Of a DNA stretch of 64,000 nt, positions 8,879 through 40,912 are shown piece after piece; the stretch's first letter is position 1, and each line of letters begins with the position of its first letter. The stretch comes from Ceratodon purpureus (Eukaryota; Streptophyta; Bryopsida; Pseudoditrichales; Ditrichaceae), in contig CM026425.1 in NCBI GenBank assembly GCA_014871385.1, positions 17,068,637 to 17,132,636 of the forward strand, read 5' to 3'. The position numbers and the translations under genes are program-made. The notes below the pieces were generated by a model. It was not told the DNA's origin and did no database searches. It saw only the letters and a list, made by a program, of their open reading frames with translations.

Positions 8879-9284
8879 ATAAAGGAAACTTACTTGGCAC
8901 ATGGAGATGCTGAGGTCACGGGCGGTTAATGACGCGGACGCTTGTTTCCCATCTCTACAGGCAGAGCTTAGGCGAACGTCCTCAACCTTGAGGCAATTCA
9001 CCGGACTGACGTGCAGTCGAAGGCGCACAAGAGCTGGAATTTTTATTCCGCAGTGCGATCGTCTGAGTGTCGTAAGTATAATCTTCCTATTAATAGTCAT
9101 GGATCTTCTTTCTCTACTGTATCACCGAACTCATTGTTTTCCACATAGCAAAAATCAGGACTCGAAATGACGAGAATGCCATCACACAGATCAGTTATAT
9201 TTACTACGGCTGAAGTGAAAATCGATAGAATATGTACCTCGCAATCCGCTAGACTAATGGTGTAGCTGATCGTCGTATTATATT

Positions 9285-15386: not shown

Positions 15387-15713
15387 GGATCTCTGTATTC
15401 TAGTCCTACGAGCGTTCTGCGGGAGGCCCGCGCGGGCTGCGCTCGCCCTCGGGCAGCCCGAGTCCGCCCATGTCCCGAGACCCCCCCCGCTGGGTCTTCC
15501 GAGCCCCGTTCCCGACCCGCGACTCCCTCCCGACGAGGCTTCTCCGTCCGTCGTCCCGTCCTCCGTCGCGCTCCACGTCGGCTGCTGACTCACCTCCCCC
15601 CCGCGAACAGTGGATCTCCCGCCCCGACCCCCTCCCTTGCTGGAGCCCTACCACGCCCATTCTCTTCCCTCCTGCCGCCGTCGCGGAGCTCCGCCCTGCT
15701 GCAGCGCCGTGCT
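15387..15713 (+). repeat. MULE-A left terminal inverted repeat
   Basis: The 327-bp GC-rich repeat matches the reverse complement of 23682-24008 with no difference I could find. The promoter of the transposase gene probably lies in or just inside it. Confidence 0.95.
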
Positions 15714-15780
15714 GCAGCTTGAGCCCGTGAACGTCCTGGACACCATGTGACCGTAGGTAGACCGCGTCCTGGAGGCAGCC

Positions 15781-18700
15781 ATGGAGGTAGATGTCGTGGA
15801 CCTGGCTGCGGAGCACAATCCCTTCGTCGTAGACTGCACAGGGAGCCCATGTTGTCCGTCCCCGGAGTGTTCTGTACCTGAATCTGCGGATGATGATGAT
15901 GGGGAACACAGCAGGGACAGGAAAGCTGCCAGGACGGAGGGAGGTGGGAGGGTTCGCCAGAGTACTCTGGAAAAATTGCGTGCGAGGCTACAGATCCCAC
16001 CGGATGGGCATTTTGATCGGACTGATATCGCTTGGGAAGGGAGAACAAACCAAGGTCGGGGTCGATTTAGGGAAACTTATCGGGCGATTATTCCCTGGGA
16101 CAGATTGGGCGACTTCGTTGAAGGAGAGCAGAGCATGAGGGATTTCCCATGCACTTTCAATGAGGTTCCCACATCTGGTCACAAATTAGGGCAAGCTGAG
16201 AATGCGAAAGAGACAAGCTTCCTTCAGAAAATAAAGTAAGTTACCCCTGCACTTCATTGTTAGTCTCACTGTAGGTATTTGACATACGAGATGTTAGGAG
16301 GTGTGTCCCAGGACAGGTTTGTGTTTTAAATTTCCACCACCCGCATTGACGGTGATTGAGATTGTCATGGAACAGCTTCCACTGCGAGCACGGACCCCTT
16401 GACAAGACGGGTGAGGTCAAAAGAGAGGTCGACAAGATATTTGCAGGTGCATTAAAAAAAAAATTATCAACAAATCAAAAAACTGCTAGAAAGCGAGTTG
16501 AGAAGCAGGAAAAGAAGGCAGCAAAGGAGGCTGCGAAATTGGCAGCCGCTGAAGCAAAACGGCTGAAAGCTCAGAAAAAGGGCAATCATCTCACTCTTCC
16601 ACCAGAGGTTGTATCAGAGGATTCAGGAGATTCAGATGCTGAAGAGGGGCGTCCTCGCTTCCAGGACGGCGTTCCTGTACCAGCGACGGTTGGGCCTGGG
16701 AGGCAACGTAGGGCGGGTAGAGTTCAAGCAGGTATGACTTCAAAGCGCGGTTGTCAATGTAATTTTGTAGCGAAGCAGCTATACATGGATAGTAGCCTTT
16801 GCGAAATACAATACCATAATATGAATCATGTGAACAGCCAAGGGAAGCCCTGTCATGGCAGTAGTTTCGCAGGTTTTAGGCACTCTTTAGGAGCTAGGTT
16901 GTCCTGGAGGACTAGACACTGGATTAGATCCATGCTTGCACAAGGTTTCTCTCCGGCACAGGTTATGGCCTTCCACAAGAAGTAAGTGTGGGAGTGCGCC
17001 ATGGCGAATAGACCTTGTACCAGAGACACTTTTATTATGCCCCATGACGTATACAATTTGAGCAAGAAGAGAGCTGCACAATTATGGCAGAAGCACCCGA
17101 AAGATCCCCAGAGTGTAAGAATGTGGAAGGAAGAGAATGAAGAGTCTGTTTTCCATTACAACGAATTTGGGAACATCAACTTGAATGAGGCTGCACCCAC
17201 AGCTGAAGAAGAGGAAGCCCCTTTCTGTCTTGGAATCCAGACGCCATGGCAACTGGACATGATGCTTAAGTACGGTCATAAAAGACAGGTGGCTATGGAT
17301 GCAACATTCGGTACCAATGAACCCAAGGTCAGTACATATTGCTCCAGGTCAATTATTTCTTAACCGGTTATTTCTGTGCTGATTGGAACCGATTTATTTT
17401 TATTATAACAATCCTTATGTTCAGTTCATGTATATTAACTTCTTAAAAGACGACTGTTTCTGTTCCAGTATCCATTGTACACTGTCATGGTATTTGATGA
17501 ATGGGAGAACGGGATTCCTGTTGCATTCGTCATCGTCGGCAAGTCCAAGGAAAAAGATGTTAAGCCTTGGCTCGAGAAGTTAAATGCCCGGTGTCGAGCC
17601 GTCCAACCGGACTGGGAGCCGGGTTCCTTCATTGTTGACAACGCCCAAGCTGAGATAAACGCAATATCGTGAGTTCATAACTCTTTGAATACTTTAGGGT
17701 GTTTTCTCTTCATTAAGTTAGACTTCCAACACTTGTGGGCGAAATTTGACAGTGCTCCCTTCGTGGTGCAGGACCGTATGGCCGACTCTGCCTATTATGT
17801 TGTGTCTTTGGCATGTGAGAAAAGCCTGGAAAGAGAATGCTGTCCAGAAAATTAAGGACGACACTCTACGTGTCCAGGTTCTGAAAGCAGTTGAAGAAAT
17901 CATGTACTCACCCGATTTGGCAGATGGAGAAGTCGCAGTTCAGAGGGCGAGACAGAAGATTGCGGGATTACGGGAAAAATTCCCTGCAGCCGAAGCATTT
18001 GTGTCATATTTCGAGGAGACTTGGAGTGGGAAAACGTCTATGTGGATTACTGGTAACAGGAATTTTCCTCACTGCGGCCAGGACACTAACGCAGCGGTTG
18101 AGTCTTACCATGCTAACTTGAAGTCGATTCTAACTCAGACTAGACAGAAGCTCAGTGGACGGAGAATGGATTGGTTAATATATCATTTGATAGGAGATGT
18201 TTTAACGCATTATTGGTACGCAGTTCAATGCAAACTTTATGGATTCATAAAAAACAGGAAAGCGGAAGGAATAGTAGCAGGAGCCGTCCTAAGGGCGCGT
18301 GAGATTCCAGATGACTACGTATCCATATACCCGGATGCTCAAGACATTGCACTGGTGGTCTCGGTCAACAATTACCCATCAGTCTGGACTGTAACCTGTC
18401 CGGATTCCGTTTGGGCCCAATGTGACTGCCCTATGGGCAAGAGAGGTAACATTTGTAAGCATTGTGTAAAGGTTTTTAAATCTCTACATCCTGACGTCGA
18501 GGACGCCCTCATTATAAGACATGCAGGTACTCTTAAAGGGACTATTGAATCGGGTATGGACAACTCTTGCCTGGACGCGTTCGCAAGTGGTAGGACGTTG
18601 GATAACGAAAAGGAGGACGATAAGGAAGGGGGCGCTAGGACACAATCAGTTGCCCCTAACGGAATGTTCAGGGAGTTTCTTGCAGAAGTTAAAGAGATCG

Positions 18701-18945
18701 AACAACTAGTTACCCAGGACAGAACTCTAACGGCTTTTGCCTTAGCACAAGTTAGAGCTACGAAGGGAAAGATTTTTGAAAGACAGGCTAAATCTCTAGC
18801 CGGTCTGCTTCATCCACTTTCTCAGCCAAAATTTCATTCCGGAGAGTGTGACAACAACACTAGACGGCATCCTAGTTTTCTGGAGAGATCAAGACATAAG
18901 GGGGGGAACGTTGGGAAGAAGAAGAAGGTTGACTCCGGTAGCTGA
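15781..18945 (+). CDS. MULE-A transposase (DDE, SWIM zinc finger), in-frame stop
   Basis: This is a MURA-like transposase that would cut and integrate the element. Exons 15781-16235, 16376-17327, 17469-17668 and 17772-18945 join with matching phases to 927 codons including stops. In order come a short acidic N terminus, a conserved FHCEHGP block, a Lys/Ala/Glu-rich segment, a zinc-type N-terminal DNA-binding region (CQCNF, then NHVNSQGKPCHG), and the RNase H-like core with D460 (MDATFGTN), D526 (IVDNAQAEINAI) and E646 (NAAVESYH). A SWIM finger follows (CDC...CKH, about 753-766) and the tail is basic. Codon 355 (16983-16985) is TAA. MULE-B aligns through this point without a gap, so it is probably a nonsense mutation. 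The stop overlaps a GTAAGT donor; a 42-nt in-frame intron to 17023 would remove it, but that is shorter than usual plant introns. Confidence 0.88.
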
Positions 18946-19827
18946 TTGAAGCTTGCCTAAGATGTTATTTAATTCCAGTAATGCAAGATCTGCTGTGTCC
19001 TAAGTCGACTATATTGATGTTCACTTTGGTTCTTAACTTTCCCAGGACACTGTAATACACTGCGGGTAATGATAATGTCATGGTTTTGGGTACGATGTGT
19101 TTTTTTTTTTGTTGGACAAGCCTGTAGTCTTTGCGGACGTACTGTTATGTGGTTATCTTTTTTTTTTTATCCCTTCTGTCAATTTGTTTCTCCTTTAGGT
19201 TCTAGACGCACCCAGTTTATGACTGTTGCCCTTCATATTTTTTGTGTTCCAAAACGGTATTTCTTCTTTATGTTTCCATTTGTCCTCTTATTTTTCTCCG
19301 TTCTGTTTACCCTGAAATTATATTTTTTTATCTTTCTTTCGATTTATTTTTCCCCTTCCTCTCTGTGATGCTTCATTCCTCCAATTACTCTAGCTGCACT
19401 GTATCCATCCAGTGCTTAACTCCGGCGCCCTGGGTGCGTCCTGGAGTACTTTCAAGACACGTTCAATTTTCTTTACTGTACTAGCACTGGAGGCTCTCTG
19501 ATTACCTCTCGTCCTATTCCATCTTCCTTTCGTTCATTTATTTTTTGTTTTCCATTTACTTTTTTTTGAAATTTTTTTATTTCATATGTTCTCTTCTTCT
19601 TATTAATTATTGTATGAGACTGTTTATTTCTTGAAGCGTTTTTTATTTTTCTTTTTTAGGTTTTCATATTTCTCACTAACTGGTTATTATTATAAATTTT
19701 TGGTAATTTCTTTTCTTTTTATTAATTATTGTTTCCGACTTTTTATTTTTTTAATTTTTAATTTTTATTTTTTTAATTTATTTTTATTTTTCCGAGATTT
19801 CACACTATTTTTTTTCTTTTTCAAATT

Positions 19828-19876
<49 letters not shown>

Positions 19877-20245
19877 CTTTCTTTTAATTTTTTTTAAAAT
19901 TTTCACAGTATCATTTTGCAATTTTTTTTTTTTTTTCGTTTTTTCTTTTTAATTTCGCAGCAAATCCATTACCCCTCACGTATGGCTGATACCGTGTTGC
20001 TCTGATCGCTAGCAGTTAACAAGAACTGGGACAATGCAATGTAAGGCATACGTAAAGGAAATACTATGACGATGAGGAGTTCATAGGACGATGAGCAGAT
20101 CACCTCGGTGCTACAAAATGGCAAATGTTCGTTGAAAAAAAAAAACGGCAAACTCTACAAACTGCTGTCCTTAAATCTACTCTGTCTTATTCCCCTCTAA
20201 CTACAGCCTACTCCTACTGTACCATAAACCCACATCCGAGGTCAC
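18946..20245. other. T-rich spacer between convergent MULE-A genes
   Basis: No gene is evident. From about 19090 to 19950 the plus strand is extremely T-rich, with an uninterrupted T run at about 19830-19876. Two copies of the MULE-A heptamer lie at 19042 and 19438. The stretch probably holds both polyadenylation regions. Confidence 0.7.
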
Positions 20246-23200
20246 TCAGCTAAGCTCTACAGCGTAGGGGTCGTCAAGTTGTCCTTCCACCACTTCGCCG
20301 TCATGCGCCTCCGTAGCTCCAGATGTCTGTCCTGTCTCTGCCACGGTCCGAACTTCTGGGTTCTGATCTTCCGGAGCTTTCCCCTTCCTGACTGTTTTGT
20401 CGCCCCCGTCACCCCCCTCGTCCATGGAGTTCCCGTGGTCGCCCTGTGTTAGCCCCCCTAAGTCACCCACCCGAGCGAGAGCTTCCATCGTGCAAAGGAC
20501 TTGCGATGCACCGAACTCTGGGACGTCGAGTCCCGCCAAGTCCGCCAAGCGTACCTCGTCAGTTTCACGTCCTCCCTCGGGCTCCTTAGCTGTCCAGGGG
20601 TTAAGCTTAGAGAAACAAAACCGCATAGAGACGTTACGGAGCACCATCATGGCCTGACTGACATCGTCCGGAACTATGTCATACTCACCAGTCCAATCCA
20701 AACAGCCAAGGGCGTACTCCAGATCAACTCCCTCCCGCAGCAGCATTACTCTCCAGAATGACTCCAAAGCCTGATCACGACGTTCCTTGGATGCCTCCAA
20801 CCAGAGAACACGGAGGTCGTTCTCTTTATCCAGGGCTAGCATGTCCTTGCACGCCCTCCAGAAACAACGGCGCGTCCATGACCTCGCTGTCTCCACGATG
20901 TCTTCGAATCCAACGCCCGTCCTAGTTACCGCCATGAATTCTTCGAAGGCAGTGCACGTCGTGTCCATTGTCGGGAACAGAAGCAAACCCAAGGTCGGCA
21001 AATCATTCATCGCGAACTTGACCTGGGCCATACGCTCATACAGAAATGGAACAGAGACGCCCACACGAGGACAAATCATAGGGGCCTCCACGCCATTTTC
21101 ACGGCGGCTCCAGAGCTTTAGGGCTCTCACGAGGGGGGGGACTGGCGTCATACCTGCCTGAGTTCGACATTCGGCCCTTATCCAGGTTAGGACGTCCTGA
21201 AACTCTACCTCGTTGTGCTTGCATGGCAGAGTCAGGAAGCCGGGGACGGGTTTCTCCATGAGGCGCTGAAATAGAGGGGACCAGTCCCAAACCTTGGCTT
21301 CCTCGTTCACCAGGAGGCAGCGGTCGTATTTATCAAGTGCCGCCTTCACAAACTGCGCGCGCTGCGCCAGGACAGCCTCGATCGCATTCTGCCTTGCCTC
21401 GTTCTGCTCTTGGTACGTGTAGACGTCCCTGTGGTGAGCAAGAAATGCGTCTATCTCCATGCGCATGAGAGTTTCGTTTTTTTTTCCTGAATCCGTCCAG
21501 GCACTGCTTCGCGGCTTCGTAAACAGATTGGGGGAGACCGTCCTGAACCCCCGAAATGCACGCAACACATTACGAACAAAGACTAATTCTACCGGAACTG
21601 AGCATGAAGAACAGAACTGAATGTGCGATAAACGGTACTCAAATTGTAGGAGCAGCGGAACTTACTCTTATGGCGGGATCCAAGGTGAAAGCTCCCCACG
21701 CATTAAAGATTTTTCTCCCCAATAATCCGTTTGCGTGCAGTGTCAATATCGCATTCTTTGCCTTCTCCAGCGATGTGAGAAGGTCCAATTCGATTACATC
21801 CCCCGTCTGCTCGACTAAACTGTATAACCCCGGAGGCTTACCTGGTTTTCTGGGCTCCGGTCCGGCGTCGCTGTCTGGGTACTTCTGCAGAGCCCTCGAC
21901 TTCAACCGCAGTTCCAGCTCTGCTCTAGGACCAATGGGAGGTGGTGGCATTGTATCCAGCGGCTGCGGTCCAGGCGACAGTCTCTTCGCCGCACGAGATG
22001 CTTGTCCGGGCGTTCTGCTGGACTTCTCTCCCACTGTAGCACGCTTCGGTGGTGTCGTGCGAATTGGTGTCGTCGTCCTAGACGCACTCTGCGTCCTAGG
22101 TGTCCCGTCCTTCGGCTGTTTTCCCTTTGAAGACTGCCCGCCTACATCCCCTCCACCGATGGGCCTCTCCGCTCGTGGTGTCTTACTCCTTGCCTCATGC
22201 AGGTCCTGAAGGTGCTCAGCAACAGACTTACCAAGGTTCCTCCTCTTCATCGGAGGCTCGTCCATGAAAGCACTGTCCCCGTCAGAGGCGTCGCTACTGA
22301 GGTTCACCACGTCGTCACCGTCTACTTCTCCGACGGATGGCTCGTCTGCTGGGCGGTTCCCCCCTTTCCCTCCATTCTGCCAAGGAAGCGGCAGGTTGTA
22401 GGCTCTGAAGACGGCAGCTATCTCCGAATTCCCTTTTGCGCCATTAACCGGGAACATCTTCAGAGGACCACTCTTCTTACCGTCGTACATTGTACACAGG
22501 TCTTGCTGCCTATGCCATGCTAGCTCCGATTTGTCTACCATATCTCTATTGCAGAGACGGCAGAAAAAAGGGATCCTCTTGGACTTCGTTGCGAGTGTGC
22601 GCTGCGTCCTCCTCCACATGGCGTTCACCTCGACAACCATCCAGTCGAACTCGGACTGGCTGTAGGCCTCCCTCATCCTGGGTTTGTCGGTCCACACGGT
22701 GGTGCACAATACGACCTTCTCCTGGACACCTCGGCTGTTCTTCACTGTGATCTGCAACCCGGATAACAGTTTCGAACAGGGTAAGGAAAACTCGAAGAAG
22801 ACGACTGAATGAATAGAGGAAGACCAAAAAATGAGGAACATGATCAATGAACACTAAACAGTCCAATGCGAGTACTCACCCCTGGAACTATACCCGGCGC
22901 TGCATTGTTCAGCACCTCCTGCCCTTTCTTCCCGATTGCCTTATAGTCCAGGATAGCCGCATTCGTCCGTAGGTACTCCACTGCTTCGGCGTACGAGAGT
23001 CCGGACAGGTCCACAGCAGTCCCATTGTCGTCCTGGAGGACAACCACATTACAACCGCGATGGTGAGGATCGACAACCTAAAGCATACAACGAATGGAGG
23101 AGCACGACAACAGGAACAGCAAGGACAACAGGAACAGCATCAACTCACATGAACAGCATTAGAACCCGAACATGTGTACAGGCATATGAAGTCCTCGAAG

Positions 23201-23368
23201 ACAGTAAGAACTCTGCAAAGACACGAACAAAATGACTTGGACATGGAGGACGGGGGCATACATCGGACAAGGAAAGGCTATCTATGAAGACCACGAGCTC
23301 AGTACAGTCAGGGCGCAAAGGAGGTCGCCAGCCCGGAAAGGAGATAGTGATCTTACCCGTAGGTCCAT
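20246..23368 (-). CDS. MULE-A accessory protein, C2HC finger, no protease domain
   Basis: This gene has no known function; it is homologous to the MULE-B accessory gene. Likely exons on the minus strand are 23357-23368 (short first coding part), 22880-23032, 21666-22751 and 20246-21542; phases agree, but the 5' end is uncertain. The product, about 849 residues, contains a C-x2-C-x12-H-x5-C zinc finger (near 22490-22560), a Pro/Thr/Lys-rich disordered middle, and a conserved C-terminal region with WDWSPL (21272-21289) followed by an LPCKHNE segment and a helical domain matching MULE-B. The last exon is one base out of phase across a run of nine A (minus strand, 21477-21485): reading is protein-like in one frame before it and another after it. 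Unlike MULE-B, it ends without an Ulp1 domain. Confidence 0.72.
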
Positions 23369-23681
23369 CGCGGCTGCTAATATCCGATGCAGTGCGTAGC
23401 ACTTCCGTCCTCGCCCGCCCACGTCGCCCTGAAAGAAGAGTAGACCACAGCCGATTCCCGCTCCAAGACACAATGTACAGGATGGGGACCAATGTGCAAC
23501 TATGCACTATGAGGAAGGCGAGCGCGAGGATGACGAGGGAGGCGACATAAACACAGCGCCGGCTCTCCAACCACAGGTATCAATGCGCCGTCGCAATCAT
23601 TATTTCACACTCCATGACGGGACGTTCTACTCCTTACCAGCGTCAATGCAGCTAACTAGGACGTCTTCTCCAGGACGGGTT

Positions 23682-24008
23682 AGCACGGCGCTGCAGCAGG
23701 GCGGAGCTCCGCGACGGCGGCAGGAGGGAAGAGAATGGGCGTGGTAGGGCTCCAGCAAGGGAGGGGGTCGGGGCGGGAGATCCACTGTTCGCGGGGGGGA
23801 GGTGAGTCAGCAGCCGACGTGGAGCGCGACGGAGGACGGGACGACGGACGGAGAAGCCTCGTCGGGAGGGAGTCGCGGGTCGGGAACGGGGCTCGGAAGA
23901 CCCAGCGGGGGGGGTCTCGGGACATGGGCGGACTCGGGCTGCCCGAGGGCGAGCGCAGCCCGCGCGGGCCTCCCGCAGAACGCTCGTAGGACTAGAATAC
24001 AGAGATCC
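23682..24008 (-). repeat. MULE-A right terminal inverted repeat
   Basis: Reverse complement of 15387-15713, ending at the outer sequence GGATCTCTG read on the minus strand. Confidence 0.95.
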
Positions 24009-26340: not shown

Positions 26341-26349
26341 CAGAAGATA
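26341..26349. repeat. MULE-B target-site duplication, left copy
   Basis: CAGAAGATA here is repeated exactly at 40904-40912, directly outside the opposite inverted repeat. Confidence 0.95.
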
Positions 26350-26647
26350 GGAGAACGCTAAATGCCCCGTAGGGAAGGATAGGGCGGGACGGCGCGCCTT
26401 GGCGTCCACCGTGGACTGCCACCGTGGAGGGCCCCGTTTTCCCCGCGTCACGGCTCCCGAGTAACTCCGCGTCCCGGTAACTCGAAACGCGCGTTACATT
26501 GTGACACCCGTCGACTACAACGTGACACTGAACACTGGACATCGACGTGACACAAATTTTTTTAACTGACCGTGACCCACAAAAGATGACGTCACGCCAC
26601 GTCATTCGTCTTCCACCTCCCATTAGGGACTGTCGACTAGGGTTTCC
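26350..26647 (+). repeat. MULE-B left terminal inverted repeat
   Basis: The 298-bp repeat matches the reverse complement of 40606-40903 with three mismatches (about 1%). It contains heptamers at 26501, 26522 and 26547. Confidence 0.95.
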
Positions 26648-26929
26648 ATTAGGGTTCCAGTGTTATGGTTGCCGGGTTTACATTGTTCTGTGTTCTTTCG
26701 GGTGTGCATGTAATCGATTCAGTTTTGGAACCACGTTTCCGAGTGTGTATTCGTTGCGTGCTCATCGCGTAGGAGCGCATATTGACTGGAAACCTTGAAT
26801 GTCAGTTGCGATTTGTAGTGTTTCTGTTTTGTTAATTTATTTGGGATCATTTGTGTAGGAAGAGATCGTCTGTTCTGTGTCAAGGTAGAAGTTGTTTGGC
26901 GTATTCGGTGACTCAACGTGATTGCGATT

Positions 26930-29900
26930 ATGGAGAGGGTGGATCTAAAGAGTACGTTCTTCCCTACTGCCGATGTCAAAGTCGATGACTTTGAGGTAGA
27001 CGTTGATGCTTACGATCTTCAGAAGCTTCAAGTGCAGGCCATCGAGGAACGGGTTCAAATTCCACCCCCGGGCATCTTCGGTCCAAGCGATTTGAGGTGG
27101 GATCTGGAGTATCGTCCGCCCAGGGGTGAGCACAAGAAGTCGCATACTGTCCAGCAATGTTTCGTGCCTACAAGTCGTGTTCATGACTTCATAGAGGGAA
27201 TGCAATGCGGTCGAGAGGGAGCGCAATGCAGATTCCGACCCACGAAGGAGAATCGACGTCCCAATCAAAGCCGAGATGGGCACAAGACTGCCCTTGACTT
27301 CACCCGGTAAGTTAGGTACTGTCACAGTGTATTGTTTTGCGTGTGCGTTTTCCATTACTGTGCACTCTAGGGTTTACGGGTTCTGATGGAACATTCAAAT
27401 TCTACAGCTATAGATGCGAGTATGGGCCGAAGGATTTTTCTCACATTGTGAAGCCAATTACCGAGGACTTACTGCCCAAACCGAAGAAGAAGAAACGTCC
27501 ACCTGATTGCGTCCCCGAAGGCAACTCCATTGCGCCCACACGTAAAGCACGAGCAAGGAGAGTTAAAAATCCAGAGGGGAGGAAACCACCACGCAGGTTT
27601 AAGTCCAAAACTCCTGGATGTGGTGTGGACGCGATGGATTGGATGTTGTCTGGTGCCCCTGCATTGCCCAAGAAGAGACGAGGTAGGAAATCCAAAGGAG
27701 ATGGAGCGGAGGAGAATTCAAGTGGAGACATAGTCCAGTCAGATGCGCCATTGCAGATTCCAGATCTGAATGAGATCCCTGATACTGAAGAAATTAGCGC
27801 AACACCTCCTCCGACTGTGCGGAAAAGAGGACCTCGAAAGAAGAAAGAGACTGACCTTGATGTGCAGTCCAGTGTCACCACTGACACGGCAGCACAGAAG
27901 CCGGTTAGGAGGAGGGCTGGGAAGGCGAAGGCGACTGCGGTAGAGGTGCAATTGTCCTCCACGGCCTCTGGATGCCCCGTTACAGGTGCCCTATCCTCTG
28001 ATCCCGGTTCAGTCGTTGATCCAGTGATTCCTAAGAAACGTGCTCCAAGGAAGTACGTACCTAGGAAGAAGAAGGGATCAACCCCTCCCAAGCATCAGTG
28101 TCACAATGGCGTGGAGGTGAGAATTGGAGGGCGTGAAGGGGAGGTCGTACAAGCTGCTGTCGAAAACCACGAATTCGTGGGAAGTAACTCAGTGCAACCG
28201 GCAAATGTCCCTATGGCAGAGGACCATCCCAGTGTCACAGACTGTCTTACTCCACTCCTGTCTGCGCTGTGTGTCCACGGTGATGATGTGTGCTCACAGC
28301 TGAATGTACCTGGGATACCAAATGGGGAGAATAGCGAACCGGTTCTAGGAGGGCAGCTTGGGGATATATCGATGTTGGTGAAGCAAGCCGAAGCGGAGTT
28401 CGAGAAGGAAGATTCTGGTCGTCAAAAAATAAGGAGAGACTCAAAGAAGAAGTGGGGGGGGTCGATAAAACGGGGATGTTTGGCTCAGTTCACTGTGAAG
28501 ACTCAAGAGTCTTCTTCATGCGCCACATGTGTCGGAGATATGCATACTCCAAGGGAAGCATGTGAACAGAGACGGGTTGGTTGTGCACGGCGGGATGAAA
28601 TCAGGGGATAGGAGCGCTTTCTCAGCCCATTTGTCGCCGGAAATTCGGACATTTGTGGAGGAATGCCTGCGTCGAAAAGACTCTTCAAATCAGATTATGA
28701 AGAAGCATCTGGATATGTTGAAACAATACCAGGCGGAGGGGAAGGATATAACACGGGATCTCCTGCTTACGACTAAAGACATTCGCAATATATCGGGAAA
28801 ACTGGCTCATGAAACGTACATGTTACACAAAAACGACGCGCAGAGTGTTCGAATGTGGGTTCAGAAAAATCCCAGTAAGGTCTTTTACTATACGGAATCT
28901 AATAAGGAGAAACCGGTGCCTGTCCCAGGGGAACTCACAGGGACAAATATGCCATTCACAATTGGGATACAGACGGACTGGCAGAAGAAGATGATGTTAA
29001 AACATGGCCATCGTGGGGGAATTTCAGTCGACGCCACATTCGGAACGAATGAGAAGAAGGTACTAACAATCTAAACCTGATGAACTCATTATGTTGTATC
29101 AGGCTGTAACACTGGTCGTTTCAGCTGTTGTTAACCCGTGACACTGACTTCATCGCCCTGGTTCTGGCATGTTGCAGTTTCCATTGTACACGCTCATGGT
29201 TTTCGACGAATGGCATAATGGCATTCCCGTAGCCTTCATTTTGACATCGAGGTGCGCCGAAGTCAATCTTACACCATGGATGAGAGCTTTAAATGCAAGA
29301 ATGGTCGCTGAACAACCTGACTGGAAACCTGAAGCCTTTATTGTGGATTGTGCCCAAGGAGAAATAAATGCTATAAAGTAATATTTCATACCCCATACCC
29401 GATATTTTATAAATTGTCTTCATAGGATATGTGACACTGCTTTTATTTATTGAGTGTCACAGTGTCACCACAGTATTATATATAAATGTATGTATACGAT
29501 TTTGACATCACTGTTACAATGTTACTTATATTGTGTCCAATTACTTCTACAGTGAGACGTGGCCCAATACTGCCATATTCCTATGCTTGTGGCACGTTCG
29601 GAGGGCCTGGCAGAAGAACTCATGTTACAAGATTGCTGACATCGGGGTACGAGCTGCGATCATGAAGGAGCTCGGTGAGATAATGTACGACCGGTCTTCG
29701 CCACCCGGTGCAGAGGGGAAAGATTGGGCTAAAAAAAAACTAGAGGAGCTGGAGAAAAAATATCCAAAGGAAAACGAGTTCTGGGCATATATGAAAGAAC
29801 AATGGCTAGATAAAGTGCACATGTGGGTGGTCGGTTTTAGGAATTTGAATTATTGCGGCCAGGATACAAATGCAGCCATTGAAGGGTACCACGGCTTTGC

Positions 29901-30729
29901 GAAGTCCATATTGAAGTCTGAACGGAGTAGGATGACGGGAAGAAGAGTGGATTGGTGCATTACTGCTTTGACAGAGGATGTTGTTGACCATTACTGGTAC
30001 AAGGATCTCCGAAAGGAAAAGGGTTTCGTTGACAACAAAAAGATGCAGGATACCGTCGTAGACTCCATTTTGAAGGCCAGAAACATCCCTGACACGGACG
30101 TGACACTGCCAGTGGAGGAAGGTGACACTGCGATGGTCACGTCTACGTCGCATCCACACATGCGGTACACTGTCTATAACCCGGGATCTGAGTGGGGTGT
30201 TTGTAATTGTATTTGGGCACAACGAGGGAACATGTGCAAACATCATGTAAAGGTGGTTATGATGATGAACCCCGACATAGCCGAGGGAACGATTGCACGA
30301 TACTGTGGGAGAATGGCTGGTAATGCTAATGGAGGTTTAGGGCAATTACTAACACCAAGTAGAGCCCAGAATAAGGTACCAGTTGAGGTGTATACCCCTT
30401 TAGGGGATCACACGTCGGTACCTCAAACACCAGTTACTACTCCAAGGAGGGGCCGTGTTATTGATCTTCAAGATACGCTGCGACAGCAGTTTATTCATCT
30501 CCATGAATTAGTCGATGAGGATTCTTTCCTACAGGAACACTTAGTCGCGGAGCTAAATCAAACACTTGGTCGACTACGGAGATTAAAAGTGGAGAAGAGG
30601 GAGGGGAGACTACATCCACTGGCTGGATCTCCTATGTTTGAGACCGTTGACGACGGGATGGGATTCAAGCTTCGTCGACGGAAGGACTTCCTGGAACGGG
30701 GCGGACCCTCGGTGGCACGTCGTCTTTAG
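26930..30729 (+). CDS. MULE-B transposase (DDE, SWIM zinc finger), one frameshift
   Basis: This is a MURA-like transposase homologous to the MULE-A enzyme. Exons are 26930-27306, 27408-29059, 29178-29377 and 29553-30729. Intron positions and phases equal those of MULE-A, and exon 3 is 200 nt in both. Exon 1 encodes the N-terminal block (IPPPGIFGPSDLRW). Exon 2 opens with YRCEYGP, continues through a long Lys/Arg/Pro-rich linker with AT-hook-like stretches, then the zinc-type N-terminal domain (KRGCLAQF, HVNRDG). Catalytic residues are Asp at 29030 (VDATFGTN), Asp at 29346 (IVDCAQGEINAI) and Glu at 29881 (AAIEGYH). A SWIM finger (CNC...CKHH) lies near 30199. In exon 2 the frame must shift between about 28495 and 28520, inside a CTTCTTC run, to keep the match. 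This copy may therefore be inactive, or the shift may be a sequence error. Confidence 0.88.
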
Positions 30730-31093
30730 GTATAGTTTCTCTTCAGATGCTCTGAACGGGACAGAATCCATCCAGAACGTTGCGTCACCGTCACTCTTCG
30801 TCACTGTGACACTGTTCACTAAGTCCACACTGATATGCCCTTCAATCCAGTCGATGTGGTTCTCTTTTTGTTTTCCCCCTTCGTGTACGTCCTCGGGAAT
30901 TTGTTGGGTGGCAGACATGATTCGCATAGGGTTGGTCGTCCACTGTGACATAATGGATCTTATAGTTTTTGGTCTAGGGTTACTATTACTATCTTATCTT
31001 TGGAAGAGGAGAGATATCAGCTGTGGCGGGATTGCAAGTCATGAAGGGGGCGTCGTTCATGCACAGTCATTGGAGGGTTGCGGCTATCAAGCA

Positions 31094-31333
31094 ATGGCGC
31101 GTACTGGAGGCCCATGGAAGAAGAGGAAGCAACGGAGGGACCGTTCTGATGGAGCAGTCGGCAATGGCAGGACAGACACCAATCGTGGAGGTTTTTTTAT
31201 CAATCGAGCGCAATCGGGGTGTGAAGATACCATGGCGGAAGACGGGGTGGAAGCGGATTGGGTTATGAGGCAGTTCTACTCTGGACTCGGCGAGAATGAA
31301 TGGGACAATCTGAGCAATTACAGTGCTAAGTAG
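31094..31333 (+). CDS. Small basic ORF downstream of the MULE-B transposase
   Basis: The 79-residue frame is Lys/Arg/Gly-rich at the start (PWKKRKQRRDRSDG) and acidic at the end (GLGENEWDNL). The open frame extends upstream to 30638, overlapping the transposase end in another frame. It may be a separate exon spliced to the transposase transcript, whose MULE-A counterpart also ends in a basic tail, or a small independent gene. I know no homologue. Confidence 0.35.
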   Translation: MARTGGPWKKRKQRRDRSDGAVGNGRTDTNRGGFFINRAQSGCEDTMAEDGVEADWVMRQFYSGLGENEWDNLSNYSAK

Positions 31334-32080
31334 CGTATTCTAGTGTCACATATAAATTCTTAGCTTCACTTGATCCCGCAATGTATCCTATCTGACCATG
31401 TCAGTGAATGCATATGAATTTAAATATCCTTGACACGGTTTGCTTGAATCCTGTGACACTGTCATTTAATGTGTAATGATGTCTCATTGACTCAGTGTCG
31501 ATTTCTGTGTTAAGTACATGACATCCGATTCTAGATACTCACATCATAAGTTGGGATTCAACTGAAGTTTGAAAGATGTCACAAACTCTATTTAATATTG
31601 CATACGTAAAGATGGTCGCCCATTTTCCGCAAAGAAATACCTCATACACTCCATGTGAAGATGTAAAGAAAAACCTATTTGCACGTGAGAGGGAAATATT
31701 TTGCCCTTATCTGTACAAGTACTCGTGAGTATCGGAGTTTCTTGAATTGAAAGGTGAAAGCATATGAATCAAACCCTTCTCTATTTAGCATGTACTTGAA
31801 TATCTTAACTGTTGTACGTTAGTATTATAGCCAAGTTCTGTTTAATGGTGCTTGATTATGTAAATATCATTTAAGTAAGGAATAATTAACGAGGGCAATT
31901 TCCGTAAGATACCCTTCTATGTACTCCTTAATTGTACCTGAGATATCCCGAGTGTAACGAATTGAAGATACATGTTTTATGACTAAGCGTATTATTCTAT
32001 GACGATTATAAATTGAAGCATTCAGAAATATTGTATCCTACAAAACATAGAACTCGAATTGGATGTTAAATTCCAACTTA

Positions 32081-32127
<47 letters not shown>

Positions 32128-33322
32128 TGGATTATAGAAGTAGTTAATTCCAAACATTGTTACTATTGGATATGTGTATAGGCATAAATGAATTTATCTA
32201 TACACTTACCTTTAATTTTTATATATTTCCCCTCTAAGTCCGAGGACTGTTAACATAATAATACCATGAAGATATTACTAGTTAGCGGAAAAAAAAATGA
32301 TATATAAGATTTAGATAACTCCTAAAAGAATATGCATATAAATTTACACGTCCTATGGCCTAATAAATAATAGAGTAATGTGTTCAAAAGTATATTTAAG
32401 AATTACAATTATATAAAAATACTACGAATAAAAAAACTAATACAAATAAATAAGGTCGTCCAATATCAAGCTTTTTCGCATTGTATGCAATGTGATTGTT
32501 AAACTACATCACAAATCATCACTTTACCATTGACATATAAATATTTAAGTTGTAGATTTTTTAAATTTTTTTTACATACATATAATGTAATATCTTAATG
32601 TAAAATAAATCGTTCAAACGGGTACGGAGAAATTTACATATCATGTACCAAACTGTGAATATAAAATCAGTTACGTTTCCATGAAGAAAATATTCAATGC
32701 AAAATGACAAGTAAGACATTGATAGTTTATTGAAAATAGTTCATTATAAGATATGAAGGACATTATTCGGAACATATACGCTTACAACTCACAATGTAAG
32801 AAAAAATAAATAAATTATATATTAGATTTTAAAATATATCACCATGAAAGAAACGACTTCAGAATTAATACTATAAGTATTTATTTAAAATAAAAAAAAA
32901 GCGTGACATAGACCACAATGTTAGTATACACAGTACTTACGAAATAGTGAAATTGGAAAAACCGATGTACAATGCAAAATAGGAATCAACAATTTCATGA
33001 CTGCTCATATAAGTCAGCTCGAAGAGAGGAAGAAGTACTCACTTTCCTCTTTTTATTCTCCCGACGTGACCAATCGGCAGATACACAATTTTTCCACTCA
33101 ATGTCACAATGTCACAATGTATCACGTGCTGGTTAGTGTCACAGTCTTAAGGGTATCACTATCTTAACATGATTATCCGAAACTTACGTGGCAGAGGAGT
33201 TGCTCGGTCCTCTCACCCGTCTTATTCTATTACTTCTACTCGCATACCTAGATTTCCACTTTACAACACACTAAAATGTACGTACTGATACTTACAGCGA
33301 ATTGCCTACATGTCCCTAACTG
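31334..33322. other. AT-rich spacer between convergent MULE-B genes
   Basis: No gene is evident in about 2 kb. It contains an uninterrupted T run at 32083-32126 and, near the ends, copies of the element heptamer (31343, 31453 and 33136). It probably holds both polyadenylation regions. Confidence 0.7.
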
Positions 33323-36300
33323 TCAACTATTGTGAGTACAGGATACCACCGACGTGCATCCACATTCCGTACCCTTGGTGTCGCGTTTCGGTTTCTTCCA
33401 CCTCGACTGGCCTTGTAAGAGTGTCACATAAGTAGCCTTCGGCTTCACTCCCTTGAACTGCTCACACTCCGGGAAGAGAACGACCCTCTTCTTTTCGGAA
33501 GCCTTCGACTCAACAACAAGGGGCACTGCCCTCTTCTGCTTCAAGTGAGCGTGCCCTAACGACAACACTGGAGGATATATCCGATCATTCTGAAGGGACA
33601 CAGTGCTCTGTTTGAAAGACGGAATAGATGGAGGCGTTTCACGCACAGGTAGGTCGACAAAGTCGGCCATGGTGGCTAAGAACTCCAGAACTTCTGACTC
33701 TAGCCCATCCATCTCTCTAGGAGCCAAACTAATTCTGTCGTGGATAACAGCCTATGACATGGGAAATAAAAGATTCAAGAGAGGGTCCAAAGCAAGGACG
33801 GTAGTTCTTATATACAATAAGCGTGAGTTGATGTTATGAGTACTCTCCACGTTCTACTGCTATGGGAACTTCTTCACGCCTAAAACCCTAAACCCTATAC
33901 CATATATACTAGTATCGAACTATTACTGTACGGCTTTCATGTAAATGTTCAGTGTCTAACCCTTCCGAGTAAAAAAAGAGGTTGTTCCGAACTCTATATA
34001 AGAGTCAATTAAGTTATACATTTTTTGTAGTTAAAGCTAGTTGGGAGTTTCACACAGTAAATTAAACCGTTTCACAGAACTGACTGTTTCGATACCGAGC
34101 GATAACGAGGCAGGGATCTCAATGCCGCTCTTGCACTGCATCTAATCGTCGATGTATTTGAAGACGGTAAGCTAACATAGTGTATGGAAACTACAACATC
34201 AACCATTAACCATTCAAGCATCGTATACAAAAGAACTTGCATGTACGAAGTAGTGTAATCACTAATTTTAATTAAATGTTCGGAGTTCAGTGTAGCAGCA
34301 TCTCATTCTACGACCACTGCTCCTATGTCGGCAGTCCAAGCATGAAAGTACCTACTCACTTCTTCTGTGGAACAGAGAACGGTGCCCTGAATCTAGTGTC
34401 ACGTCTGTCATTGTCTAATTCCCTAGCTAAAAGGCACAGGACTTCCATGTTTGTCTTCTTCGGTTTGAAAGGGGCCAGCAACGCAGTCTTCATCAATGCT
34501 TCTCTCCTGGTTGATGTCCACGCTCGGAGCTACTTAACATTTTACCACAGAGTGAGGTCAGAAAACTAAATAACACTATTCACAACAGTAAATAAAACTA
34601 TATGGACAGAAACTGTAATACAGAGTTCTGAGGTTGTCACCTTCAAGTACAGCATTGTATTCTTTATTGTATGGTGACCGCATTCGTATTGCCCTGATTG
34701 GAGGAGCACTTCTAGAATCACAACCGGCACATCATATGGTTCCACTCCACGTAAGGTCTGCCAGGCTCGTGAAATCCACTGAACAAAAGCTGAATGGTCC
34801 TTTTCCGGCTTATGATATTTTCCCGACTTTGATGAATCTAGGTGAACAACTTTGTCATACTGGAAAACCAAAAGTGACCAGTGGTCATGGGCCACCCACG
34901 GAACAAGAATCTCCTTCACCTGATGAACCTTGATAGGAGGAGGTGGTTTCAGAAACGTCGTTGCCCACTTCAGCAAACCCTCATGGTCCGAGAGAGGACA
35001 CCTAAATGTCGAACTAATCCGGGAGAGAGTAAACATTATCTCGTGTCTATAGCAAGAAGGGTACTGAAAATAAAGCCGGGACATGACAAAATCGACAATG
35101 TCATTTCCTAGTCGAGTCTTTGCACGTTTCAGATCTCTTATCGCCTGGAACTTCACTTCGAGCTCCTTCTGCTTCTCACTGAAGAAGATGACTTCGACCG
35201 CACCGTCCTTCTTCCCCTGACGTCCCGGTAAGGTCTGCAAGAAGTCCTCGATGTGTAAGTAATTATAAGCCTCAGCCAATGTCATGAGAGCAACATCATC
35301 AACTCGCACCATAGCACAACTCGGCCAAGGAGCTGCTGCCATGACATTGGAGACCTCATTGTCCTCAACACTTTCTGCCTCCTCATCAATCTCCTTACAT
35401 TTTTTTCCAGACCGCTGAGATAGGTTCACGAGTTCCGCGGCAGTGACCTCCAGATCGTCCTCCTCGTCGAAAGTAGCACTTAGATTCCTACATGCCGAGT
35501 CTTTCTCCACACACGTCACCTCTTGGCCGCTGTTGCCAGGTACTATGGATACGCCCTTGTAAGGTGTGCGCATGTTTGCTTCGGGGTGGCCCTTCACCCA
35601 TTGGTGAAAGCTTGGATCCTGCGAAAAGGTGGTCTCTTCCACGACCATGTCCTCTCCTGCATGAGCAGTGTTGTGGAACTGACTGAGTGTCAAAAGAGGG
35701 GTTACAACCGACGGCGAATGGTCCTCCTCTAAGATGTCGCGGATTTCAGGAAACACTGTGGGGACAGAAGTCGCTTGAGTACCCCCCAGCAAAGGTAGGA
35801 CACTGCTGTATTGTAGTGTCACAGTTGCCTCAGAACCTCTGTCCCGAGATGGAACGACCAAGTCTGGGACTTCTTGGACTCCCGTCATCGTCTCCATCGA
35901 CCGGAGGCCATCATCTGAATGTGAGTCTCCCCCCACAGCGTCAGTGACATTGATATCAGCTTTGATATTCAAATCATTAGTAACATTGACATCGTCTGTG
36001 AGAGAGATAGTCTCGGCACTGTCAGTGTCACGGGAAGGTGCTGAAACTGATTTCGAAACCACCGGAGAATGGACGGTGACACTGGCCTCTTTCTCCCCAG
36101 CTCGAATATCAGAGATATTCGAAACCTTGTTTGTGACGCTGTCGCTGTGGTCAACTGGGAACGCGACCGAAGGAGTCGTGACACTGCACCCGAGTTTGAC
36201 TACAGTTCTGTCGGATGGAACTAGGTCTTCAACCTCGACATTGTGACACTGGGTTGGGAGTGGGGGTTTACTGCTTGGGAAATGACCCGCCTCCACGTCT

Positions 36301-39300
36301 GTCACGTTCTTCTGAGCACCCTCTCCAACATGGTCAAGGATACTATCGCTCTCCTCGTCTAGGACATTAGCCTCACACCCGGGCACAGTCTGCTTCAAGT
36401 CTTCACTCTCAGTGACACTACAGAGGGATGTCTTTAGATCTACGTAACCCGTGACACTGAGTGGATGCTCCTCCGAGCCTTGTATGACCGTGGCATTTGT
36501 ATCACCTTCCCTTGTGTTCTCCAGTACATGCGTAGGGCTCAGATTCTGAATATCGGACTCAACTCTACAGTCTTCCACACCACCTTCTACCATAGGCACC
36601 AAATGAGCTTCAACCATGTCGGGCGAAGAAACTGCACCCTTCCGCAGGCACTGGTCATCTTCCACCACAACCGTGTGAGTGAACTCTTTTGAACACACTG
36701 CCCAATAGGCAGCGTCCTCCCTTTTCAATGTCCCGTGGATATCGTTGACACTCTCCTGAATCCTAAGCCTCGAAGCGGCTACTCCGGGATTCCAGTTGGG
36801 AGTGTGCAGAGTCGGGACCCAGCCGACGTCATGCTCCTCCCGTGTGCGTAGGATCCAATCCCAAGTATTCACATGCTCCTTCCACTGGTCGTGTGAAGGA
36901 TTTCCCCACACTGTGTTGAATTCCATAGCATTGCAGACTGCCAGGTCCTGTAAGGCCCTGATTCTAACCCTAGCCACCCACCCGAGCACGCTGTGAACTA
37001 AGTCCTCGCCTTCCCCGGAGTTTATCCTTTGTACTTCACCTAGAACCTTAGCTCGCAACGTTTCTCCCAGCCCGAAGGGAATTCCGGAATAAGTATACAT
37101 CCCTTCCATCATGAAGATCGACAATGCTCGATGGATGTTCATTACTAATCTGCATTCATTTCTGATGATACTGTCCGTTAACCCGTACAGAGGACAAGTC
37201 AATAATCTGTACGGCCCGTACAGACATTTGAAGAGAACTCTGAATACGTACAGAAGAGGTGTCGGGGGTAATCCTTCCATACGATGATCGCACAGGAACC
37301 TCCTGACTTGCTTTGCCTCCATGGCTGCATCACAGAATGGGGTAATAGTAACTGTCAACCATGAGGAAAACAATTTAAAATGCTACTAAACCCTATCTAT
37401 TTCAGTCCGTTTTAAATGAATCCGCCTTCGAAAAAAGTCGCAGTACTGAAATAACACTATGATCGAGTCATAGAGCAGGGATTACCATCATGTCGCCACG
37501 GTAAGGCAGGCAATTTGCTTAGGAGGTCGACGTTTGATGACAAAATGCGCCAGAGTGGGGACCAGTCCCATTGCACCTCCTTGTATAGACGGCCGTTCTT
37601 CTCCCGGAACTGAAACGTAGCCATAGCTGCTCGCTTAATCTCGGCGTCACGAAGTTCCAATCTATACGCATCTAAAGCCGCCTGATAGCGATCGAAATCG
37701 ATTCTCCACTGGACATATTCTCCTAAAGGGCGAAGATCTCCATACGGAACCCCATCCTCGACACTAAGTACAAGGGCTTCCATTGCAAGTGACACTGCCT
37801 CAATTACTGTACCAGGCAACGGAGTTCTCTTATCCCCCTACATAACCAACAACGGCTGTAATTAGTACTATAATACTAACACATGCATAAAACTTGAATA
37901 GTGCAACAAATAGTTACCACAGTAGGTGGTTCTCAGACACTAACCTTTTTAGCCATCCACCAATACGATAGGCGCATGAGGTTGTCTCTGAATTCAGATC
38001 GGTTGATGTCTTCATTCCATCTGTTCACGAATTCTTCACCACTATCACAGTCCCAAATCCAGGGCAGTGTCACCTCAGATGAAATCTCCCTGAGATGATA
38101 CAACCCGGGCATTGGTGGTTCTTCGGGGCACACAGGTGGCGGCGGATGTCGTACAACAGAGTCAGATTCCCTGCAGTGCTTGACGACGTGGTCTTTCTCT
38201 AATTCGGTAAGCATGTCTCGCCTGGCCTGGAAGTTCTCGAACGCCCTGGGGTGGAACGTAAATGGTCCAGGGCACCCCTTCCCATCCGCCCAGTACTGTT
38301 GGAGCTCGGTGACACTGCTGAAGTCGTCGTCCCAAACCTTCATACTCCGTAATTCTTCCTCAGGGGCCATCGGTGACACTAAAACGTATGGCTGAGAGGG
38401 ACTATCAGGGACAGGGGGATCGTCTCCCACATTCAGCCCACTGTGACACTGCAGACATTCATCTAGAACGTTACAGGACGTATGCCCGGTAACATCTACG
38501 TCCCCAACCTCTCCACCTATAGACTCTGTAGTGTTACCTTCACTATAGATGTCACCTACAGAATGATTAATCCCTACAGTACCAATTGTAGGGCGTCTTA
38601 AACCAAACAGAGACCCCTTTGCACCATCTCTATATCTTACAGTGAACCTATCACGTAACATATCAATGGCTACTTGTTTGTCACTTACCTCCGTCTCAGC
38701 TGACTCCCTCGCATTTTGGTTTTTCAGTGGCTTCCCCTTCTTGCGAGAGTGCTTCGGCTGCTTCTTCTCCTCTGCCTTTCGCTTCAGAGATTCTCTAATA
38801 GTAGGACCGCGTGTCTGAATGGGGACCTCCTCATCTGGCGACATTTCAACCTGCGCATTAGTGTCACAGCACATTACAGAAGTGCCACCTTCGAAGTCCT
38901 TGCGCCCTAGAACATTCTCTTTCTCCTTCATCTTAGTCTCCTGCGCTAGGGCCGTTCTTGGTGACAGTAACCTCTGTACAGCGCCCATTTGAAGGCCCAT
39001 GTTTGACCTCTTTTCTCCCCCGACATCCGTCGAATTTCTACCCACATCTCCAGTGTCACAGATGTCGCCCAGCGCACCACCTCCTTCTGCCACAGGGTGA
39101 GCATTATCCTCAATATTTGATTTCGGTGAATCACGAGGATCCGCTGTCGCACTCTTCCTAGGGCTCTTCGAAGGAGACGCCGCTGCATTGGCTTCCTTTT
39201 TTTTACCCTTCCTTGAACCTGCAACGACCCTAACCCCTTGCCTTGCCTTGCACATAAGGTCTGGCGCAGGAGGAATCTTCCCGATCACACCTCGATTCGC

Positions 39301-40412
39301 ACCTCCTTCCTGTCCACCCTCCACAGAACCTCCGTCTCCAGCCACTGCCGTCTGCCCTCCTCCATTCGCTGCGCGTTGTTGGCCGCCCAAGGGTACAGTC
39401 TTCGACAGTGGTGACGCCTTGCCCATCACCTCCACGCGCTTCCCTTCTCCAGGTTTAAAATCAGGGTACGGGAGCAACAATGCCGTACTCCCGTCCGGAT
39501 ACCTTGCACTTCCACAACCGTCGATGTAACGGTGACGATTCAGCATCATCTTATTGCTGAATTCGTTCTTCCCGCAATGAATACACACGAAGAACTTACG
39601 CGCCCCACCTTCCTTGACCCTCCCTTTACACATTGTCGCAAATTCCCTTCTCAATTCCTCTACCCTGTCCAGACTCGGATACTTCACATCATAAGCATAT
39701 TGGTAAATGACCACCCTTAGTGTCACCGGCTCAGTCGCCATGTCGGATGCCTTGTAAATCCCTGTCCGAGCACCGCACTTTGCACACCCTGAAGGAAAGA
39801 AACAAATGAATCTAAACCTATTAACTACCCCAATAACACTCCCGCAACCGCCTCGGCAGGGCACGTGATTATAAAACCAGTCCTTCTCCTCGAATTGAAC
39901 GTCGTCCCTGGCAGTAACCCTAAGTGAGCATTCGGAGGTATACAACCAAAAAAAAAAAAAACCGCGAACATATATGTACTTTCAAAGGAAAAACTGCATC
40001 AGCATAAGAGGTACAGATACCATGAACATATCATCTGCCCTAGATAATAACCCGCGAAGAGTAGACTACTGGAAGCAGATAACCCTAAACACGAAGAGCA
40101 AAAGAAAGAAGACAGTAAACCCTAAAAATTACATAGGTTTCTCACCTCGGTATGCTCCAGAATGAAAACTCGGCGCTGGACGACGTCTCCACGGAGCTTC
40201 TGCACGTAACACGCATATCAGAGATATAGACTGTTGATGATTCCATTACGATATTCAGCAATGCAGAGTGAAGGATTACACGAAATCGGTGATTGAAGAA
40301 ACCAAGAAAACTTACCTCCATAGCGACGCTGTCCGCAGAGGAGCTCCTTCCCCAACATGAAGGCGCTGCTCTCCCGCCTCACCAAAGATGTCATCTCCAC
40401 GGCCCCGGGCAT
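33323..40412 (-). CDS. MULE-B accessory protein: C2HC finger plus C48 Ulp1-like protease
   Basis: Eight minus-strand exons (40316-40412, 40146-40199, 37945-39788, 37486-37837, 34641-37324, 34360-34529, 34085-34135, 33323-33734) join in matching phases to an uninterrupted frame of about 1,887 residues. In order: a CAKCG motif, a C2HC finger (C119, C122, H136, C142), a long Lys/Ser/Pro-rich disordered region, the WDWSPL segment (about 755-760) and adjoining helical domain shared with MULE-A, an acidic Ser/Thr-rich stretch, then a C48 peptidase-like domain with H1597 (HDHW), D1612 (HLDSS) and C1664 (QYECGHH), and a basic tail. C48 enzymes such as Ulp1 cleave SUMO-like modifiers, and some plant MULEs (Kaonashi type, VANDAL) carry such domains. 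The intact long frame argues for selection on its protein. The role is unknown; DNA binding or anti-silencing is inference. The first two exons are the least certain. Confidence 0.8.
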
Positions 40413-40605
40413 AATTATGGCGCAATAATGCGCTCTTTCCAATTCGTACTGAAATGACAAAGCACACCAACTCGAGTGTAATCGATAAATCCCTAAAACC
40501 CTACAAGCTAAGAGGGAAATAACTACAAACCCATAACTCCCAATGCTAAGAAAATCGCACTTCCTCAATGACAATGCTACCGCAACGTCGAATCCACGAA
40601 ACACT

Positions 40606-40903
40606 GGAAACCCTAGTCGACAGTCCCTAATGGGAGGTGGAAGACGAATGACGTGGCGTGACGTCATCTTTTGTGGGTCACGGTCAGTTAAAAAAATTTG
40701 TGTCACGTCGATGTCCAGTGTTCAGTGTCACGTTGTAGTCGACGGGTGTCACAATGTAACGCGCGTTTCGAGTTACCGGGACGCGGAGTTACTCGGGAGC
40801 CGTGACGCGGGGGAAACGGGGTCCTCCACGGTGGCAGTCCACGGTGGACGCCAAGGCGCGCCGTCCCGCCCTATCCTTTCCTACGGGGCATTTAGCGTTC
40901 TCC
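40606..40903 (-). repeat. MULE-B right terminal inverted repeat
   Basis: Reverse complement of 26350-26647 with three mismatches. It contains heptamers at 40700, 40725 and 40746. Confidence 0.95.
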
Positions 40904-40912
40904 CAGAAGATA
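40904..40912. repeat. MULE-B target-site duplication, right copy
   Basis: CAGAAGATA, identical to 26341-26349. Confidence 0.95.

Follow-up and report, generated by a model that had tools for sequence, protein, structure and literature searches.

An exact 8-bp word arrayed along a moss Mutator-like element is kept by selection on DNA and may be a family-specific address

Introduction

MULE-B is a Mutator-like element (MULE) located at positions 26350..40903 of a 64,000-nucleotide stretch of the genome of the moss Ceratodon purpureus (assembly GCA_014871385.1, contig CM026425.1, positions 17,068,637 to 17,132,636 of the forward strand), which is hereafter called the window and whose own numbering is used throughout. 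The interior of the element, between its terminal inverted repeats (TIRs), harbors 30 exact copies of the 8-bp word AGTGTCAC, which are scattered through exons and non-coding parts in both orientations and are kept there by selection on DNA. On balance, we incline to the idea that AGTGTCAC is a family-specific address along the interior of a TIR-bearing MULE, which would be read by a protein of the element itself, likeliest the product of its second gene (gene 2), and would serve to lift silencing.

Results

A preliminary description of this DNA, made from its letters alone, had listed 36 copies of GTGACAC/GTGTCAC in MULE-B, where about two would be expected at random. All 36 coordinates are exact and no further copy is present in 26350-40903, while dinucleotide-preserving shuffles of the element (n = 300) contained 2.28 copies on average and 8 at most, which rules out chance or base composition as the cause of the array. 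In 300 such shuffles, the expected counts were 0.60 for AGTGTCAC and 0.13 for CAGTGTCAC, to be compared with 32 and 22 copies seen; the latter figure (22/36 sites) agrees with the earlier statement that most sites extend to CAGTGTCAC. For the interior taken separately, the 30 sites reading AGTGTCAC compare with 0.57 expected. When k-mers were ranked, leaving aside words with runs of four A, T, C or G, AGTGTCAC came first among the 8-mers of the interior (z 30.2, against 6.9 at most in 60 shuffles), and the top two 7-mers, AGTGTCA (z 17.9) and GTGACAC (z 16.5), are both parts of it. Outside MULE-B, the right-hand host DNA, in which about two copies had been noticed, holds exactly two in 23.1 kb (3.2 expected), and the neighboring element MULE-A (8.6 kb) has no copy of GTGTCAC. 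Within the 64-kb window, the word is dense inside the element and rare outside it, as in VANC-type systems.

The interior array is exact and its edge lies at 8 bp, because all 30 interior copies read AGTGTCAC and the one-letter variants of this word are at background, with 15 occurrences over 24 variants against 13.8 expected from a second-order model. If one TIR is counted (33 copies), the base 5' of GTGTCAC is A in 31 copies, both exceptions being TIR copies, and the base before it is C in 21 and T in 9. In each TIR, two of the three motif copies lack the leading A. Orientation is mixed (15 vs 18 of the 33 copies) and spacing irregular, from 8 to 1683 bp. The flanks of the sites are unrelated and a repeat search revealed no family of larger repeat units encompassing them; a longer repeat unit or tandem duplication is ruled out, as the sites have no common flank. 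According to exon calls made by eye, the 36 copies comprise 22 coding, 6 TIR and 8 other non-coding sites, with densities of 2.5 per kb in coding sequence, 10 in the TIRs and 1.6 elsewhere, and the exonic sites occupy five reading frames.

That selection acts on the DNA rather than on the protein had been proposed in the preliminary description, and this is borne out in three ways. First, the coding sequence (8823 nt) contains 21 GTGTCAC, whereas 500 synonymous-codon shuffles, which hold both protein and codon usage fixed, gave 2.74 on average and 8 at most. Second, the peptides as which the motif was said to be read are indeed spelled by it, in 7/8 cases for SVT, 3/3 for QCH, 5/5 for VTL and 4/6 for [CRSG]DT, where codon use predicts 5.5% for SVT, 16% for QCH and 6% for VTL. 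A protein-driven signal is ruled out by these shuffles and codon choices. Third, the word has left an echo in the proteins of relatives, as described below. Within a 935-aa open reading frame (ORF) of gene 2, all seven motif copies fall in protein-variable parts (449 of the 935 residues), and within a 669-aa ORF five of seven do so (540 of the 669 residues).

Two sets were used to look for the echo: the variable transposase linkers of 14 relatives (2097 tripeptides), namely those of 120 listed proteins in which the anchor pattern lies more than 80 residues in, the remainder being omitted, and 13 predicted gene-2 products, in their variable parts (2499 tripeptides). Homologous contexts were collapsed roughly, and positions common with MULE-B were included. 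In the linkers, QCH ranks second (5 vs 0.07 expected), after DLN, and SVT sixth (12 vs 2.08); in the gene-2 set, QCH ranks first (5 vs 0.11), RDT fifth and SVT sixth. In raw counts, for which the protein sets were sorted by hand, QCH occurs 8 times, against at most 2 for any permutation of its residues, and 5 times against 0 in the other set. A control of 32 land-plant SWIM proteins (22,385 residues) has QCH once, SVT twice and VTL once. QCH and SVT would be different frames of one 8-mer, and no protein-level reason for the presence of both is apparent. In gene 2, QCH is found at one aligned place (CLQCHSGL in MULE-B) in three relatives whose neighboring residues differ. Similarly, back-translation of the two sets gave values for AGTGTCAC of 2.18 vs 0.38 ± 0.12 and 1.95 vs 0.41 ± 0.14, exceeding 200/200 shuffles in each, while the words of MULE-A and the VANC6 word AGTTGTCC showed no rise, and the z of the VANC21 word AGTATTAC was 2.3 for one of the sets and 0 for the other. 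Among 2500 random 8-mers treated in the same way, AGTGTCAC ranked fifth and second; the words that did as well or better were AGTGTCAC itself, redrawn once per set, and in the first set also AAGAAGAA, CCACTTCT and TTCTTGCG.

MULE-B has the ends of a MULE. Its 299-bp TIRs (left, 26350..26648, plus strand; right, 40605..40903, minus strand) differ by 3 mismatches and are flanked by a perfect 9-bp target-site duplication, CAGAAGATA (26341..26349 and 40904..40912). The left TIR has motif copies at 26501, 26522 and 26547, of which only that at 26522 reads AGTGTCAC, and the right one at 40700, 40725 and 40746. The transposase gene (26930..30729, plus strand) has about five exons (26930-27308, 27371-28503, 28505-29060, 29178-29378 and 29554-30729; junctions by eye), in which DDE blocks and a SWIM finger (C-x-C..C-x-H) were recognized by eye. 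As expected for a MULE-type transposase, it has 122 related proteins at E ≤ 0.001, and several of the 120 listed carry a precomputed PF10551 match (e.g., P0002 and P0006), P0002 being a Ceratodon purpureus protein 85% identical over 60% of the query; in MULE-B itself, the Pfam MULE domain (PF10551) matches one exon with E 0.0093, below the cut-off. This gene has five coding motif copies, three in the variable linker (27872 SVT, 28098 QCH and 28232 SVT, plus strand) and two further on (30100 VTL and 30122 GDT; 30100..30128, minus strand), as well as four intronic copies (29138, 29431, 29454 and 29462; 29138..29468). Three more copies lie downstream of the gene (30806, 31343 and 31453; 30806..31459), and another non-coding copy is found at 33136. 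No relatives of the locus were found in viral contigs, where 1 stretch fitted the search pattern, or in bacterial and archaeal contigs, where 24 did.

Gene 2 (33323..39945, minus strand) has several exons (approximately 39783-37933, 37819-37457, 37373-34630, 34515-34379 and 33727-33323; junctions by eye), which harbor 17 motif copies. Its product is laid out as an N-terminal C2H2-like finger, a long variable middle and a C-terminal Ulp1-type domain. Seven copies are found in exon 1 (38067, 38309, 38373, 38443, 38861, 39053 and 39720; 38067..39726) and seven within about 640 bp of the protein-variable part of exon 3 (35816..36457), and there is none inside the Ulp1/SENP-type cysteine-protease domain (34644..35330, minus strand; residues 148-376 of the modelled stretch). 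For this domain a Ulp1/SENP-type fold is predicted, with H297, D312, Q358 and C364 in place, as in the fold and catalytic residues of C48 peptidases. A search of PDB sequences with the gene-2 alignment yielded nothing up to E 1. Gene 2 has at least five relatives, in a search whose scoring was confined to the candidates sharing most words. The best finger match among the relatives has E 0.0012, and DUF1985, the VANC domain, was detected by Pfam in 0 of 8 C-part and 0 of 5 N-part relatives, hidden Markov model scans being prone to miss distant ones.

Three further features of MULE-B were noted. The transposase gene has one frame shift near 28503 (28500-28510), despite TIRs that differ at only 3/299 bases, which may reflect a defect of recent origin, unusual expression or a mistake in the assembly. 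The two convergent genes have between them an AT-rich stretch (31500-33050; GC 24-35%) with 0 motif copies, possibly a nested insertion or a decayed spacer. Among 7-mers free of overlap with the motif, the most enriched in MULE-B is the telomere-like AACCCTA/TAGGGTT (12 vs 1.0 expected, z 9.5), with occurrences at 26630-26660, 33875-33895 and 40075-40130.

MULE-A (15387..24008), which has identical 327-bp TIRs and a perfect 9-bp duplication, GAGAAAAGT, sits 2.3 kb from MULE-B, and the two transposases are 35% identical over 382 columns of their C-terminal part. It contains no AGTGTCAC but 19 copies of GTCCTRG, none of them in the TIRs, with Y before 18/19 (YGTCCTRG), and the two adjacent MULEs thus bear two different words. 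Coding sequence has 11 GTCCTRG vs 2.54 in 500 synonymous shuffles (maximum 8), and YGTCCTRG occurs 17 times vs 1.0 in 300 shuffles (maximum 6) when the TIRs and a T-rich stretch are excluded. The case is weaker than that of MULE-B, as YGTCCTRG was picked post hoc from the k-mers of MULE-A, whose best single 7-mer (z 6.2) is not above the top of 60 shuffles (6.3). The second gene of MULE-A distantly resembles gene 2 in its middle region (E 0.0026-0.0082, the best non-self match of 799 segments); BLASTP of just these two genes gives weak matches (E 0.022 and 0.013).

A CACTA element, recognized from its tnp2 transposase (E 3e-65) and DUF4218 (E 1.5e-30), occupies positions 1-8760. It has 8 copies of GTGTCAC at 3955-8116 (1.4 expected in 3000-9000), absent from the preliminary description, of which one reads AGTGTCAC. 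A single word common to all elements of the window is ruled out, given the 0 copies in MULE-A and the other contexts of the copies in the CACTA element. The latter is rich in CGTTAAA, ACGTTAC and AGTGACG (7-mer z up to 7.4 vs a maximum of 5.9 in 60 shuffles), perhaps a third element-specific word, and none of its 8-mers is above shuffles. Elsewhere, the 8-mer AGGGTATG stands out at 52.5-64 kb (z 9.6 vs 7.1 in shuffles) and arises from direct repeats, and two tandem host genes at 47995-52327 have DNA 75% alike over 300 nt, the one scanned matching Pfam Steroid_dh (E 8e-27).

Discussion

Binding of the word by an element-encoded factor, as suggested in the preliminary description, is plausible, and the gene-2 product, with its finger region and predicted Ulp1-type domain, is the best candidate for the reader. 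According to the mechanism that we propose, an element-made protein would recognize AGTGTCAC and so tell the copies of its family from the remaining genome. The N-terminal finger region of the gene-2 product would bind the word, and its Ulp1-type domain might desumoylate the silencing factors found along the element, or free them of a related modifier. Relief of silencing would be confined to DNA rich in the word, namely the copies of the family itself.

Several observations weigh against this reading. The array has been read in the DNA of one family copy, MULE-B, and with 22 of 36 sites in exons and both orientations represented, it is unlike the mainly non-coding, one-orientation arrays of VANC21. 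A single finger does not usually specify 8 bp. The finger of the MULE-B copy scores 13.9 bits against a Pfam cut-off of 27 (E 0.044), and its region gave no usable structure model (predicted local distance difference test score, 42.6). Pfam gave no match to Peptidase_C48 or to DUF1985 in the MULE-B copy of gene 2. Profiles of the N-terminal finger part of gene 2 have no match in MULE-A, and no Ulp1-type domain was detected in that element, which does have a motif. As to the echo, VTL is not outstanding (ranks 319 in the transposase linkers and 57 in the gene-2 set), GDT is absent from the linkers and ranks 699 in the gene-2 set, RDT is absent from the linkers despite its place in the other set, and in the raw transposase counts, before kin were collapsed, VTS (28) exceeds SVT (23). 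Three other words also rise on back-translation, each less than AGTGTCAC: z was 4.2 for CACTGTGA in one of the sets, 2.6 and 4.2 for AGTGTGAC, and 2.0 and 4.6 for AGTGACAC, which contains GTGACAC.

The main rival is that the word is the transposase's own binding site, whose interior copies aid synapsis or titrate or auto-regulate the transposase. MURA-type transposases are established TIR binders, and the TIRs of MULE-B, with three copies each at 21 and 25 bp spacing, are the densest class of sites (10 per kb). However, two of the three copies per TIR lack the A present in 30/30 interior copies, the word of MULE-A is not in its TIRs, and one would not expect a transposase that cuts at the ends it binds to tolerate 30 sites in the interior, which makes this explanation unlikely, albeit one to be taken seriously. 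A host protein might also bind the word, be it a transcription factor or one recruited to silence the element, as plant factors with TGAC/TGTCA cores exist. This is improbable in view of the sites in exons in five frames, the different word of the adjacent MULE and the lack of enrichment in the right-hand host DNA (2 in 23.1 kb vs 3.2 expected); moreover, a site serving host silencing should be lost from the element rather than stay exact. It is about as improbable that the array is a mark of DNA-level self-recognition with another purpose than anti-silencing, in replication, as a repair template or for target immunity. The exactness of the word, for which no variants are tolerated, is reminiscent of bacterial DNA uptake and Chi words more than of ordinary regulator sites. 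The Ulp1-type domain would rather suggest chromatin than DNA repair, and we know of no MULE with such a system. Finally, favored peptides (SVT, QCH, VTL and DT), codon bias, or spread by slippage or conversion are very improbable causes, largely refuted by the synonymous shuffles and codon choice and at odds with the unrelated flanks of the sites, even if protein constraint may add to the signal at PEPVTL, GEVTLPW and DVTLP, which several relatives retain.

The anti-silencing address might be part of a broader picture, which is offered tentatively and seems to us rather doubtful: land-plant MULEs would have had, since well before flowering plants, an exact 8-bp code running through exons and introns and superimposed on the genetic code, with one word per family and a finger-plus-SUMO-protease reader that frees the copies of its own family, and no others, from SUMO-dependent silencing. 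The code would be of sufficient age, and preserved with sufficient strictness, to have left QCH and SVT traces in the proteins of diverged relatives. The literature found places sequence-specific transposon anti-silencing in the VANDAL-type MULEs of flowering plants, and a limited literature search found no moss case in print. If true, such a case would mean either that the strategy goes back much further in land-plant history or that it has had more than one origin. The exonic sites represent an unusually clean case of DNA-level selection overlapping coding sequence, the 8-bp word is a handle for finding the reader protein, and the system lets one test local relief of silencing by a tethered SUMO protease.

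Comparison with known systems

The subterminal repeats of CACTA (En/Spm) elements are bound by an element protein and are crowded near the ends. Like the array of MULE-B, they are many copies of a short, element-specific word; in contrast, the word of MULE-B spans the interior, exons included. MULEs with Ulp1 domains were reportedly described by van Leeuwen in 2007 in melon, Arabidopsis and rice, and MULE-B shares with them the Ulp1-type domain.

The closest system found is the VANC/KIU anti-silencing of Arabidopsis VANDAL MULEs, a parallel that the preliminary description had not drawn. VANC21 reads YAGTATTAY, and the words of VANDAL21 (Hiun) and VANDAL6, YAGTATTAY and AGTTGTCC/AGTTGTAC, are 8-9 bp long and dense in the family's own copies; most VANC21 motifs lie in non-coding DNA, in arrays of a single orientation (PMC5735166). 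The VANC21 and VANC6 systems and MULE-B are alike in having a MULE that has a second gene besides that of its transposase (PMC5735166), a short word dense in its own copies, related elements with different words, and a second protein with conserved domains and long variable stretches. The VANC words and AGTGTCAC can be aligned as AGTNNYMC, post hoc. MULE-B differs by its largely exonic word (22/36) in both orientations, its long TIRs, its moss host, and an accessory protein with a finger and a Ulp1-type domain and no DUF1985 by Pfam. Some VANDAL MULEs carry Ulp1 in VANC (KIU), and its capture, by non-TIR MULEs, is reported to date from about the time when monocots and eudicots split (PMC13317346). 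KIU and MULE-B have in common that a Ulp1-type domain is encoded by an accessory gene of a MULE, and the KIU system is said to recognize motifs of its own kind. Gene 2 of MULE-B would be either older than the KIU capture or an independent case.

MULE-B is not assigned to the VANDAL elements because it has 299-bp TIRs, nor to the VANC systems because non-coding DNA does not hold most of its words, Pfam detected no DUF1985, and binding is presumed; that it works like a VANC system is a proposal drawn from analogy. The principle, recognition by VANDAL MULEs of their own words, is known, while the TIR element in a moss, the exonic and bidirectional placement of the word, its strictness and its trace in the proteins of relatives are new.

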